The position numbers and the translations under genes are program-made. The notes beneath the pieces were generated by a model. It was not told the origin of the DNA. It saw nothing but the letters and a program-made list of their open reading frames with translations, and searched no databases. From positions 37,501-101,500 of the forward strand of contig NZ_LDJX01000004.1 in assembly GCF_001306415.1 (NCBI RefSeq): DNA of 64,000 nt. Reading direction: 5' to 3'. The stretch comes from Croceitalea dokdonensis DOKDO 023 (GTDB lineage: Bacteria; Bacteroidota; Bacteroidia; Flavobacteriales; Flavobacteriaceae). Shown here one piece after another: positions 23,833 through 30,530 of the stretch; the stretch's first letter is position 1, and each line of letters opens with the position of its first letter.

Positions 23833-23919
23833 GCCCACGTGGTGGAATTGGTAGACACGCTACCTTGAGGGGGTAGTGTTCGTAAGGACGTGCTGGTTCG
23901 ACTCCAGTCGTGGGCACCA
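23833..23919 (+). tRNA. tRNA-Leu (GAG anticodon)
   Basis: The gene has acceptor GCCCACG/CGTGGGC, an anticodon loop TTGAGGG within a CTACC stem presenting GAG, the long variable arm expected for leucine tRNA (GTGTTCGTAAGGACGTGC), and GGTTCGACTCC in the T-arm. CCA is encoded at 23917-23919, unlike the other two tRNAs here. Confidence 0.96.
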
Positions 23920-23921
23920 GA

Positions 23922-23955
23922 AACCTTCTATCATCAGATAGAAGGTTTTTTTTTT
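23922..23955 (+). terminator. Terminator after tRNA-Leu
   Basis: An 11-bp perfect stem AACCTTCTATC / GATAGAAGGTT is followed by ten or more T, immediately after the tRNA CCA end. Confidence 0.9.
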
Positions 23956-23988: not shown

Positions 23989-24041
23989 TTTAACGGTTGC
24001 TTATCACGTTGATACGTATTAAATTGTAAATTTGTTTAACG
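23989..24041 (+). promoter_or_regulatory. Promoter and candidate operator of the carotenoid operon
   Basis: TAAATTTG (24027-24034) is a consensus -7 element 22 bases before the MerR-type ATG. TTG at 24009-24011 is the nearest -33 box, with a short 15-base spacer. MerR-type activators often work on misspaced promoters, though usually with spacers that are too long. The 8-bp palindrome ATACGTAT (24012-24019) sits between the boxes, and two direct copies of TTTAACG (23989-23995 and 24035-24041) flank the promoter. Binding of the adjacent regulator here is inference. Confidence 0.45.
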
Positions 24042-24055
24042 ATTTATTTAAAATA

Positions 24056-24958
24056 ATGAACAACGTTAAGAAATTATTCAGTATTCGGGATATGGAGAAC
24101 CTATCCGGAATAAAGGCCCATACCATAAGAATCTGGGAAAAAAGGTATAATCTCTTCACGCCAGAACGCACGTCCACCAACATAAGAACCTACAGCTTAA
24201 AGAGCCTCCAAAAGCTGCTCAATATCACTTTACTTTACCACAACGGTTATAAAATTTCTAAAATTGCAAAGTTGCCGGAGAGTGAAATCCCTGTTTTGGT
24301 AAGGGAAATCGTGGCTAAGAACAGTGAAAAGAGCCATGCTATCAATGCCTTTAAACTGTCCATGATCAACTTTGATCAAAATTTGTTCTTTAATACCTAT
24401 AATAGTCTCTTGGCAGAGCGTTCTTTTCGGGATATTTTTAATGAGGTCTTCATTCCGCTTTTAAATGAACTGGGGCTGCTTTGGCAAACAGACACCATTA
24501 GTCCTTCCCACGAGCATTTCATCACCAACCTAATCAAACAGAAAATTTACATCAACACGGAAAAACTACAGATTTTGGAACCTTCTAGAAAGGATAAAGT
24601 CTTTGTGTTGTTCCTTCCAGAAAATGAAATACACGAATTGGGTCTTCTTTACCTCAATTATGAAATTATTTTAAAGGGATATAAATCCATCTACCTTGGC
24701 CAAACAATGCCAATAGATGATATGGTAGATTTGTTAAAGTATTACGACAATCTGCACTTTGTATCCTACTTTACGGTATCCCCTAACAAAGATGAAATAG
24801 ACAAGTATATTCAACGCTTCACCAAAAGCCTGAACGAAACAGGAAAATCCAAACTCTGGATTTTAGGGCACCAGGTACAGCATATTTCGCAAGATTCATT
24901 GCCAGATACGGTAAGTACGTTTAATTCCATAGAAAAATTGACCAGCCATATTGGTTAA
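24056..24958 (+). CDS. MerR-family regulator with CarH/LitR-type B12-binding region
   Basis: The 300-residue protein has an N-terminal MerR winged helix (FSIRDMENLSGIKAHTIRIW, then EKRYNLFTPERTSTNIRTYS), a helical middle domain, and a C-terminal cobalamin-binding-like Rossmann domain. Both CarH signatures are visible: W-x9-E-H (Trp143, Glu153, His154) in the helical cap, and E-x-H-x-x-G (Glu191 to Gly196, His193 being the candidate axial ligand) in the B12 domain. In CarH-type photoreceptors these residues hold adenosylcobalamin and light releases repression of carotenoid genes. Placement 14 bases before crtI fits that role. The ATG at 24056 is preferred to the in-frame TTG at 24032, which overlaps the -7 element. 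Confidence 0.88.
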   Translation: MNNVKKLFSIRDMENLSGIKAHTIRIWEKRYNLFTPERTSTNIRTYSLKSLQKLLNITLLYHNGYKISKIAKLPESEIPVLVREIVAKNSEKSHAINAFKLSMINFDQNLFFNTYNSLLAERSFRDIFNEVFIPLLNELGLLWQTDTISPSHEHFITNLIKQKIYINTEKLQILEPSRKDKVFVLFLPENEIHELGLLYLNYEIILKGYKSIYLGQTMPIDDMVDLLKYYDNLHFVSYFTVSPNKDEIDKYIQRFTKSLNETGKSKLWILGHQVQHISQDSLPDTVSTFNSIEKLTSHIG

Positions 24959-24972
24959 GCGCCTAATACTTT

Positions 24973-26430
24973 ATGAAAAATATTGTCATCATTGGTTCCG
25001 GTTTCTCGTCATTGTCCGCTGCTTGCTATTTGGCAAAAGCGGGCCATAACGTATCCATCTATGAAAAAAATTCTACCATAGGCGGCCGCTGCAGGCAGTT
25101 CCAAAAAGACGGTTTTACTTTTGATATAGGGCCAAGTTGGTACTGGATGCCGGATATTTTTGAAAAATTCTTTAATGACTTTGGGAAAAAAACTTCAGAT
25201 TTCTACCAACTGGATAAACTAGACCCAGCCTACAAAATATTTTTTGCGGATGATGTCATCACCATTGGGGACAGCATGGAAAAGATTTGTACAGAATTTG
25301 AGCGTATAGAGTTGGGCAGCGGAAAACACCTAAGGAATTTTATAGGGAAGGCCCAAGAAAATTATGATATTGCCATTAATAAAATAGTTTTACGCCCAGG
25401 ACTTTCCCCCCTGGAACTGGTAACCAAGGAGACCGTCTTGCGGGTAGACCAATTTTTTAAATCCATTAGCCAAGAGGTAAGGAAACGTTTTGACAATCCC
25501 AAATTAATTTCAACTTTGGAGTTCCCCGTGCTTTTTCTTGGCGCCAAACCAAGCAAGACCCCCTCTTTTTACAGTTTTATGAACTTTGCTGATTTTGGAT
25601 TGGGCACTTGGCATCCTAAGGGCGGGATGTATGAAATTATTAAGGCGATGAAAAAGGTTGCCGAAATGGAAGGGGTCTCCATCCATGTAAATTCCCCAGT
25701 TGAAAAAATAGAGGTGGGCAACGGTAAGGCCAAAGGAATCCAAGTGGCCGGTAAATTCGTGCCAGCGGACGTTATCATCAGCGGAGCGGACTACCACCAC
25801 TCCGAAACCTTGTTGGACCAACAATATCGTCAATACTCAGAAAGCTACTGGGCCAAAAAGACCTACGCACCCTCTTCCTTACTGTTTTACGTAGGGTTTA
25901 ACAAGAGATTGGACAACGTGGAGCACCATAACCTTTTCTTTGATACCGATTTTGAAAAACATGCTGAGGAAATATATGACAATCCCATTTGGCCAACGGA
26001 CCCTTTATTCTATGCCAATTTTCCATCGGTGACAGATGCGAGCATGGCACCAAAAGGCTGTGAGACCGGTTTCTTTTTAATTCCGATAGCACCAGATTTG
26101 GAAGATACCAAAGTCCTAAGGAAACAATATTTTGATTTGATTATAGACCGATTGGAGTTAAGAACGGGGCAAAAGGTAAAGGATAGTATTTTGTTTAACG
26201 AGAGTTTCTGTGTGAATGATTTTGTTGAGGCGTACAACTCTTACAAGGGAAATGCCTACGGGATGGCCAATACCCTATCACAAACCGCCTTTTTAAGGCC
26301 AAGTCTAAAAAGTAAGAAAGTTCAAGATTTGTATTTCACCGGCCAGTTGACCGTGCCAGGTCCCGGTGTACCGCCTTCCCTAATTTCGGGGAAGTTGGTC
26401 TCTGAACTGATTATTAAAAAACACGCTTAA
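24973..26430 (+). CDS. crtI: Phytoene desaturase
   Basis: CrtI uses FAD to desaturate phytoene to lycopene. The 485-residue protein begins with the dinucleotide-binding motif VIIGSGFSSLSAACYLAKAG and the YEKNSTIGGRCRQF adenine-binding stretch. It has the conserved FDIGPSWYWMPD substrate segment and the C-terminal FTGQLTVPGPGVPPSLISGK signature of carotenoid desaturases. It is the first biosynthetic gene of the operon; crtB starts 1 base after its stop. Of the two desaturase paralogues here, this one carries the GPGVPP motif typical of phytoene desaturases. Confidence 0.93.
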   Translation: MKNIVIIGSGFSSLSAACYLAKAGHNVSIYEKNSTIGGRCRQFQKDGFTFDIGPSWYWMPDIFEKFFNDFGKKTSDFYQLDKLDPAYKIFFADDVITIGDSMEKICTEFERIELGSGKHLRNFIGKAQENYDIAINKIVLRPGLSPLELVTKETVLRVDQFFKSISQEVRKRFDNPKLISTLEFPVLFLGAKPSKTPSFYSFMNFADFGLGTWHPKGGMYEIIKAMKKVAEMEGVSIHVNSPVEKIEVGNGKAKGIQVAGKFVPADVIISGADYHHSETLLDQQYRQYSESYWAKKTYAPSSLLFYVGFNKRLDNVEHHNLFFDTDFEKHAEEIYDNPIWPTDPLFYANFPSVTDASMAPKGCETGFFLIPIAPDLEDTKVLRKQYFDLIIDRLELRTGQKVKDSILFNESFCVNDFVEAYNSYKGNAYGMANTLSQTAFLRPSLKSKKVQDLYFTGQLTVPGPGVPPSLISGKLVSELIIKKHA

Positions 26431-26431
26431 A

Positions 26432-27271
26432 ATGAAAACAATTTTTGACACGGTATCCTACAGCTGCAGTAAAACCGTTACGGAATCTTACAGCACCTCA
26501 TTTTCATTAGCCACCAAAATGCTAGGGTCCAGCATTAGGCCAGACATTTACAATATTTATGGGTTTGTACGTTTTGCTGACGAGATTGTGGACACTTTTC
26601 ATGAATATGACAAGGAAGTCTTGTTCAATGATTTTGAAAAAGACCTACATTACGCAATTGCCCATAAAATTAGTTTGAATCCTATTTTAAACTCCTTTCA
26701 ACACACCTACCACAAATACGACATTCCATTTGAGCTGGTAGCGGCCTTTATGAAAAGTATGCGAATGGATTTGGTCAAAAAAAAGTATACTACCACAGCA
26801 GAATACAAGGAATACATCTATGGTTCCGCAGATGTTGTGGGTCTCATGTGCCTTTGCGTTTTTGTCCAGGGAGATAAAAAGAAGTACGACTCCCTAAAAG
26901 AATCTGCAATGGCTTTAGGTTCTGCTTTTCAAAAAGTGAATTTCCTAAGGGACCTTAAAGCAGACTTTGAAGACTTGGAGCGCACTTATTTTCCCAACAC
27001 CAACTTATTGGAGTTGGACGAGGCTTCCAAAAAACGTATCGTTGATGAAATAAAAGCGGATTTTGCCATGGGGCTCTCGGGTATTGAACATCTTCCCCCA
27101 GAGGCCAAATTTGGAGTATACACTGCTTATAAATACTACTATAAACTGCTAGAAAAACTCCAAAAAACACCTCCTTTGGAAATAAAAAATACGCGTATTC
27201 GTGTTCCGAATTATCAAAAATTCGGACTTTTGGCAAAATCATATGTGAATTACAAATTACAATTGGTATAA
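26432..27271 (+). CDS. crtB: Phytoene synthase
   Basis: CrtB condenses two geranylgeranyl diphosphates head to head into phytoene, the first committed carotenoid step. The 279-residue protein shows both Asp-rich Mg/diphosphate motifs: VRFADEIVD near residues 46-54 and NFLRDLKADFEDLERTYFP near 170-188. The N-terminal SKTVTESYSTSFSLATKML is also characteristic. It is sandwiched between crtI (1 base gap) and crtZ (4 base gap), so tight co-translation is likely. Confidence 0.95.
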   Translation: MKTIFDTVSYSCSKTVTESYSTSFSLATKMLGSSIRPDIYNIYGFVRFADEIVDTFHEYDKEVLFNDFEKDLHYAIAHKISLNPILNSFQHTYHKYDIPFELVAAFMKSMRMDLVKKKYTTTAEYKEYIYGSADVVGLMCLCVFVQGDKKKYDSLKESAMALGSAFQKVNFLRDLKADFEDLERTYFPNTNLLELDEASKKRIVDEIKADFAMGLSGIEHLPPEAKFGVYTAYKYYYKLLEKLQKTPPLEIKNTRIRVPNYQKFGLLAKSYVNYKLQLV

Positions 27272-27275
27272 CCTT

Positions 27276-29194
<1,919 letters not shown>

Positions 29195-29199
29195 CCTTT

Positions 29200-29835
29200 A
29201 TGCCAAAAATCCAAAGCCAATACCTAGCCATTTTTGTGATTTGGCTTTTTCATATCTCAGGCATGATCGGGATTAGCTTTGGGGATAGCGAATGGTTCAT
29301 TGGCAAATCTGCATTGAACCTTACTGTGAGCCTTTTGATTTTTCTATTGATGTTTCCTGTTAATTCCCTAAAAAAATGGTTGCTTTTTGCCGTTTTCTTT
29401 TTTGTGGGGATGTTCTCTGAGTGGCTAGGGGTTAACTACGGATTGCTCTTTGGAGATTATACCTATGGCAGTAATTTAGGCCCTAAAATTGATGGTGTGC
29501 CCCTAATTATTGGGGCCTTTTGGGGCATACTCACTTTTATAACGGCCGAAGTTGCATCTCTACTTGGTTTAAAAAACTGGCCAAAAATCTTTACAGCTGC
29601 CCTACTCATGGTAGGTCTTGATTTTTTAATGGAAAAGAATGCCCCGGTATTTGATTTTTGGGAGTTTGAAGGCCCAGTTCCCATTGACAATTATATTGCC
29701 TGGTTTCTAATTGGTCTGTTCTTACAGATTATTTTACATTATGCCAAGGCAGGTGGGAACAGACTTATGTCTTCCCATCTTTACTTGGCACAGCTTGTCT
29801 TTTTCCTCTTTTTTTACGTGACGGCGATTATCTAA
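29200..29835 (+). CDS. cruF: CruF-like carotenoid 1',2'-hydratase
   Basis: The 211-residue membrane protein of the CruF/DUF422 family has six or seven membrane segments. Family motifs are GVNYGLLFGDYTYGSNLG, KIDGVPLIIGAFWG and LLMVGLDFLMEKNAP. CruF proteins hydrate the psi end of monocyclic carotenoids to give a 1'-hydroxyl. The gene starts 5 bases after crtD and ends the plus-strand operon, overlapping the convergent crtA by 4 bases. It is not a lycopene cyclase: no CrtY or CrtYcd motif is seen. Confidence 0.8.
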   Translation: MPKIQSQYLAIFVIWLFHISGMIGISFGDSEWFIGKSALNLTVSLLIFLLMFPVNSLKKWLLFAVFFFVGMFSEWLGVNYGLLFGDYTYGSNLGPKIDGVPLIIGAFWGILTFITAEVASLLGLKNWPKIFTAALLMVGLDFLMEKNAPVFDFWEFEGPVPIDNYIAWFLIGLFLQIILHYAKAGGNRLMSSHLYLAQLVFFLFFYVTAII

Positions 29836-30530
29836 GTAAACTTTAAAGGATTTTTACGATCCCAACTTCCAATGGTTTTATAGGGTTGAAATCGTGAAAA
29901 AAGTTCTTCTGAATACCAACCTAGTTCCCTAGTCATCCCAATGGCCTTTGCATGACCTTTTGTCTGGTAGGCAAAGGCGTTAAGGGCATCTAAATTGCTC
30001 CATAAACTAAAGGTCGCCATATTTTTTAATGGCACCTCACCTACCCCCTTGGTAAACAATAGCCCATCATTTTCCTTTAAATGCTGTCTAGACTTAGGCA
30101 CAAAACGCCAAAATTTCCATAAGAACTTAGGCTTAATGGTGGCTCTGGTAATAACGGCGTAATAGGGAATATCAGTTAAAGCATCACTCTTTTTAAATGG
30201 GTTGGCACCACCCCATTTGCCCCTTGCCATAATGTTTCTTAAATAAACACAATAATGCTCCGTTGCCTTTTTTCTATAGGTATTAAAAATTTTCGCTTCC
30301 TCAAAAAAAGCATCGGCTTTGGCTTGATTTTCCCAAATTTGTAAAATGGCATATGTAGAAAAATCTGGCCTAGGATCAAACCCTTCCTTGCCGGTCCCTA
30401 GGAGCTTATACATTTCTTGTCCTTCAACTTTGGCAAAATGCTTATGGGCAAATTGCATCATTCCAAATGCCCAGAACTTACTGGCAAGATTGCCAAATCT
30501 AAAAAAGGTAAGCGTGGATACCTGTGACAT
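29832..30530 (-). CDS. crtA: CrtA-like (spheroidene monooxygenase family) carotenoid 2-hydroxylase
   Basis: The 232-residue protein resembles the CrtA family: LTFFRFGNLASKFWAFGMM, YKLLGTGKEGFDPRPDFS, YAVITRATIKP, GVGEVPLKNMATFSLW and GMTRELGWYSEELFSRF. CrtA homologues oxygenate C-2 of acyclic carotenoid ends; in flavobacteria such a gene is expected to turn saproxanthin into myxol. It overlaps cruF convergently by 4 bases and starts 3 bases after the thioredoxin-like gene, forming its own minus-strand operon. It may therefore be regulated apart from the main crt genes. Confidence 0.8.
   Translation of the reverse strand: MSQVSTLTFFRFGNLASKFWAFGMMQFAHKHFAKVEGQEMYKLLGTGKEGFDPRPDFSTYAILQIWENQAKADAFFEEAKIFNTYRKKATEHYCVYLRNIMARGKWGGANPFKKSDALTDIPYYAVITRATIKPKFLWKFWRFVPKSRQHLKENDGLLFTKGVGEVPLKNMATFSLWSNLDALNAFAYQTKGHAKAIGMTRELGWYSEELFSRFQPYKTIGSWDRKNPLKFT

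Follow-up and report, generated by a model that had tools for sequence, protein, structure and literature searches.

The presence of a MerR-type gene directly in front of the carotenoid genes of the marine bacterium Croceitalea dokdonensis DOKDO 023 (GCF_001306415.1) raises the question of whether its product could be a vitamin B12-based light sensor and, if so, which genes it may control. We analysed a stretch of 64,000 nucleotides (contig NZ_LDJX01000004.1, positions 37,501 to 101,500, forward strand), hereafter the window, in which positions are numbered from the first letter. The initial annotation had proposed that the protein keeps both signatures of the B12 photoreceptor CarH, W-x9-E-H and E-x-H-x-x-G, and that its position at the head of the crt operon supports light-controlled pigment synthesis. 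The features of the locus are as follows.

23833..23919 (+), tRNA-Leu (gag), identified by ARAGORN, followed by a terminator-like stem at 23919-23950 that separates it from the crt operon
24027..24034 (+), -7 promoter element TAAATTTG (Bacteroidetes TAnnTTTG), 29 bp before the ATG
24032..24063 (+), predicted operator, inverted repeat TTGTTTA (24032-24038) - N18 - TGAACAA (24057-24063), half-site starts 25 bp apart, overlapping the -7 box, start site and start codon
24056..24958 (+), CarH/LitR-like regulator of 300 amino acids, with a MerR DNA-binding domain (residues 8-73), a four-helix B12 cap (97-165) and a Rossmann domain (about 178-299)
24482..24517 (+), W143-x9-E153-H154 motif (adenosyl cap), with Gln144 (24485-24487) in place of His132 of Thermus thermophilus CarH (TtCarH)
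24626..24643 (+), E191-x-H193-x-x-G196, with the predicted lower axial cobalt ligand H193 (24632-24634)
24973..26430 (+), crtI-type phytoene desaturase/3,4-desaturase, 14 bp after the regulator (NF058655 CrtID, 717.6 bits, cut-off 640)
26432..27271 (+), crtB-like phytoene synthase (NCBIfam CrtB/HpnD-type matches below cut-off)
27276..27725 (+), crtZ-like carotene hydroxylase, without a model match and assigned by inference from its histidine motifs and position, as in Nonlabens (PMC11855829)
27725..29194 (+), crtD 3,4-desaturase (NF042421, 809 bits, cut-off 500)
29200..29835 (+), cruF-like carotenoid hydratase, last gene of the operon (PF04240, E 2e-24)
29832..30530 (-), CrtA-like gene (NF045923, 216 bits, below its cut-off of 300), overlapping the end of cruF on the opposite strand and thus outside the regulator's operon, although in Nonlabens a CrtA-OH gene belongs to the same cluster (PMC11855829)

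To test whether the two motifs are real, we first examined the reading frame and found that it is a clean ORF from ATG to TAA; an alternative TTG start at 24032 lies within the -7 box and operator and is not credible. The codons of W143 (TGG, 24482-24484), E153-H154 (GAGCAT, 24512-24517) and H193 (CAC, 24632-24634) were read back from the sequence. A phmmer search aligned these residues to W131, E141/H142 and H177 of TtCarH, the best PDB match (3WHP/5C8D, E about 5e-12), and an independent MAFFT alignment with a T. thermophilus carH gene agreed. A profile of 98 relatives, which includes one T. thermophilus row, matched TtCarH at E 4e-45. Importantly, in 150 Bacteroidota homologues G140, W143, E153, E191, H193 and G215 are invariant and H154 is present in 94%, and all five key residues fall among the 20 most conserved of 221 effector-domain columns (hypergeometric p 4e-6). 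In domain searches we detected MerR (PF13411, 48.1 bits, cut-off 21.6) and the B12 cap (PF02607) but not the Rossmann model PF02310, which matches only 10 of the 98 relatives. However, an AlphaFold2 model built from 94 Bacteroidota rows, with a mean pLDDT of 91.8, shows a winged helix, a four-helix bundle and a five-stranded Rossmann domain, and its first 12 Foldseek hits are full-length TtCarH (18% identity in the structural alignment), followed by CtMerR of Chloracidobacterium, which ranks below TtCarH by E-value, and the TtCarH B12 domain (TM about 0.7-0.84 on the target). Thus, the motifs are real, and by sequence and predicted fold they lie in the B12 pocket.

We next asked how widely this arrangement is kept. 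A homologue is present in 121 of 150 sampled Flavobacteriaceae genera and in other families of the order and class, and the regulator is immediately 5' of crtI on the same strand in 122 of 154 loci. The crt-linked Flavobacteriaceae proteins group together (71-row group, 100/100), and Nonlabens spongiae has the same gene order starting with a 'MerR' gene (PMC11855829). In other Bacteroidia families, an ECF-type sigma factor gene (PF04542/PF08281) sits between the CarH-like regulator and crtI (loci L215:4074-4586 and L211:3810-4313), recalling what appears to be the litR-litS arrangement of Streptomyces, while in our window no sigma gene is present and the regulator abuts crtI. MliR of Bizionia (PMC9478572), which we considered as an ortholog, lacks an effector domain and was rejected.

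Despite this similarity, the protein departs from TtCarH in several respects. His132, which in TtCarH becomes the upper ligand in the light, is Gln144 here and Gln in 126 of 150 homologues, and R176 and D201, which form the head-to-tail salt bridge of TtCarH (PMC8221060), are I192 and T217. Of the second published CarH signature, ExHx2G-x41-SxV/T-x22-27-GG (PMC8156234), only the ExHx2G part is kept (E191-I-H193-E-L-G196), and the remainder, which covers the nucleotide-tail motif, is degenerate and reads x40-SYF-x31-LG. Of the signature GxxW, EH, GxxH, GxxxP proposed for light-responsive B12 domains (PMC11796333), GxxH reads NEIH, with N in 115 and G in 23 of 150 homologues. The NCBIfam CarH equivalog NF052513, though the best-scoring NCBIfam model, gave 65.1 bits against a cut-off of 400. 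These differences bar filing the protein as CarH proper, but they do not bar the same mode of action, since the photocobilin SasPcob, which lacks a MerR domain and has a bilin domain, has Gln at the 132 position and still becomes a monomer in the light with water-ligated cobalt (PMC11796333, PMC10979010), and CarH of Cystobacter, an AdoCbl-dependent dark repressor of carotenoid genes from a different phylum, may act as a dimer (PMC9304148). CtMerR, also a light-responsive AdoCbl domain protein without the bis-His light state, has Arg at that position. Our main reservation is that TtCarH H132A dissociates poorly in light (PMC10442372).

A B12 photoreceptor would require adenosylcobalamin (AdoCbl), and we therefore searched the host genome for its supply. 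We found a PduO-type adenosyltransferase but no CobA/BtuR, methylmalonyl-CoA mutases, and one cobalamin riboswitch beside a BtuB-like receptor gene and a periplasmic-binding-protein/FecCD pair, whereas CobS was not found. The host therefore looks like a B12 importer that makes AdoCbl. PduO was found in 59 of 60 tested genomes with a homologue of the regulator and in 15 of 20 without (Fisher p 0.003), although genome size and completeness confound this association; one genome (1.7 Mb, 99% complete) has the regulator with intact motifs but no PduO-type adenosyltransferase.

To find the DNA site that the regulator may recognise, we examined its upstream region. The TAnnTTTG element, which matches the consensus generally accepted for Bacteroidetes promoters, lies at exactly -29 in 79 of 121 related upstream regions and is followed by TTTAAC in most relatives, and TANNTTTGTTTAAC occurs once in the genome, here. 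Spacing spectra of TnnACA and TTTAA words showed no excess at 11 bp, so that the 11-bp direct repeats of TtCarH do not carry over. In other Bacteroidia families, the sigma/crtI promoters, in which the repeat lies in front of the sigma gene, carry TTTTGTTTAA...TTAAACAAAA with half-site starts 25 bp apart (15 of 22 loci, 0.3 expected). TAnnTTTGTTTAA, which in regions ending at +3 could be read as only an extended -7 box, proved upon extension of the Flavobacteriaceae regions into the coding sequence to be the left half of an inverted repeat, TTGTTTA-N18-TRAACAA, whose right half is ATGAACAA and overlaps ATG-AAC-AA. This repeat recurs within one mismatch in 100 of 121 crtI-adjacent loci (1.1 expected) and in 42 of 58 loci below 70% identity (0.6 expected), with the left half at -24 in 76, and the site at 24032-24063 is the only exact hit in the window. 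Moreover, a second paralogue clade of about 30% identity near crt genes, in one locus next to a fasciclin gene, has variant half-sites of the TTTGTC[AC]AA/TTAGACAA type at the same 24-25-bp spacing (25 bp in 8 of 10, 0.17 expected). The shared core TnnACA is that of known CarH operators, which in Cystobacter and other myxobacteria are plastic and consist of tandem 11-bp repeats (PMC9304148); the arrangement here differs. Because the predicted operator covers the -7 box and start codon, repression is the simplest reading.

Having obtained a readable pattern, we searched for it elsewhere. The exact pattern occurs 12 times in the 3.88-Mb host genome, its reversed control 0 times, and 0.28 occurrences were expected from base composition. 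Neighbouring genes are the crt operon; cryptochrome-DASH with a divergent FAD monooxygenase; msrA-folE, with the start codon inside the site; a second folE plus glutathione peroxidase (GPx); PrxQ peroxiredoxin divergent from nth; mevalonate kinase-UbiA prenyltransferase; fasciclin; htpG with a divergent tetR; a TonB receptor; and an 82-aa ORF. Two sites lie inside ORFs and may be chance. In relatives, the site stands between blh and proteorhodopsin in one genome (G056), and one-mismatch sites stand at the fasciclin and cryDASH/monooxygenase orthologues, while three other regulon homologues found in G056 (an acyl-CoA dehydrogenase, a distant prxQ match and a folE) had none. A second proteorhodopsin on an independent contig (IMGVR_UViG_3300046323_000337, 71% identity) has the exact site with the -7 box placed as in the regulator promoter; this contig, the only one that a search for more proteorhodopsin promoters among viral contigs gave, is listed as viral but is probably host DNA or a host-derived stretch, and carries what seems to be a thymidylate-synthase-like ORF next to the flavobacterial-type proteorhodopsin gene. 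A genome without a homologue of the regulator had 0 sites in 400 kb at 30.6% GC, which is only a weak test as about 1.2 would be expected at host density. The gene set resembles the light regulon of Pseudomonas class II LitR (PplR/PmlR2), which includes PhrB, FolE and CryB (PMC9758184), and this resemblance is the main reason to prefer light over B12 status as the signal. Class II LitR keeps only the four-helix part, is thought not to bind B12 and works with short LOV proteins, while the protein studied here keeps the whole B12 domain in its model.

Taken together, the comparative evidence supports the interpretation in the initial annotation, which had noted neither the operator nor the wider regulon, and we consider it fairly likely that the protein is the crt-linked member of a Bacteroidota branch of CarH/LitR and a candidate AdoCbl photoreceptor that works like CarH. 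By this inference, AdoCbl would be held in the dark between the four-helix cap (W143, E153, H154) and the Rossmann domain, with H193 as the lower cobalt ligand, and the holo-protein, most likely a two-fold dimer or a pair of dimers, would bind the inverted repeat and block transcription of its own gene and of crtI-crtB-crtZ-crtD-cruF. Green or blue light would break the Co-C bond and release the adenosyl group, and with Gln at the His132 position a water-ligated rather than bis-His Co(III) state is expected, and the CarH light-state mechanism via His132 does not carry over; the dimer would then loosen and the operon be derepressed. The same protein probably controls about ten other promoters and, in rhodopsin-bearing relatives, blh and proteorhodopsin. 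It is about as likely as not that marine Flavobacteriia use a B12-based photoreceptor whose geometry differs from that of CarH (no His132, no known head-to-tail salt bridge, inverted-repeat operator) as a global light regulator, linking B12 supply to carotenoids, DNA-damage and oxidative protection, and proteorhodopsin/retinal synthesis.

We also weighed other readings of these data. As the host has no CobS and appears to import B12, AdoCbl varies with supply, and in the absence of a light measurement the protein might repress crt merely according to cobalamin status; we consider this unlikely, since the other operator sites are at photolyase/cryptochrome, folE and peroxidase genes and not at B12-dependent pathways, the adenosyl-capping W and E found in light-responsive domains are invariant, and light-induced carotenoid and rhodopsin expression is reported in related flavobacteria (PMC7064467, PMC4831467). 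It is similarly doubtful, although there are no binding data and the regulon includes general antioxidant and chaperone genes, that the repeat is bound by a different regulator, for example an oxidative-stress factor, with this protein controlling only crt or acting as a classical MerR activator. Against this, the repeat is tied to the regulator's own promoter family-wide, its half-sites change with the paralogue clade while the spacing stays, its core is that of CarH operators, and the protein is the only homologue in the host genome; moreover, the site covers the -7 box and start codon, whereas MerR activator sites typically lie between -35 and -10.

Least likely, in our view, is a B12-independent repressor resembling Myxococcus CarA, in which the B12 fold is a relic and an anti-repressor or another cue is in control. 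The missing PF02310 match and the loss of GG would fit this, as would one Flavobacteriaceae clade with EH changed to ER or ES, and truncated relatives of about 220 aa in small marine Flavobacteriales genomes, some of which also have a full-length copy, with MerR and four-helix parts but no Rossmann domain, resembling class II LitR. However, CarA lacks the Wx9EH motif (PMC8156234), whereas W, E, E and H are invariant in the 150 homologues, the Rossmann fold is modelled with high confidence, and presence of the regulator is associated with the adenosyltransferase, with the confounding noted above. Loss of B12 use in the ER/ES clade, which keeps W, E and H193, was not supported, since all nine such genomes still have PduO and the inverted repeat is kept on the regulator or crtI side; the light chemistry of this clade may differ.

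Light induction of flavobacterial rhodopsin and carotenoid genes is already known from Nonlabens YIK11, reported without a regulator (PMC4831467), and from Chryseobacterium lacus, whose authors found no car or lit genes and proposed an unknown regulator (PMC7064467). In the literature searched, which left out most subscription papers so that priority cannot be claimed with certainty, no paper found describes a B12 photoreceptor in Bacteroidota; what appears new here is the inverted-repeat operator and the predicted light regulon, including proteorhodopsin in relatives. This predicts that light control of photoprotection and proteorhodopsin in B12-importing marine bacteria needs scavenged vitamin B12. 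A published survey that started from IPR006158 (B12-binding) proteins and a GxxH motif (PMC11796333) would probably miss most of these proteins, given the few PF02310 matches and the frequent N in place of G. As for TtCarH, it shares with the present protein the linkage to carotenoid and photolyase genes. Finally, Persicobacter and Spirosoma relatives have lost the EH and lower-His motifs, yet Persicobacter still shows a TTGTTTA/TAAACAA repeat with a 26-bp period upstream.
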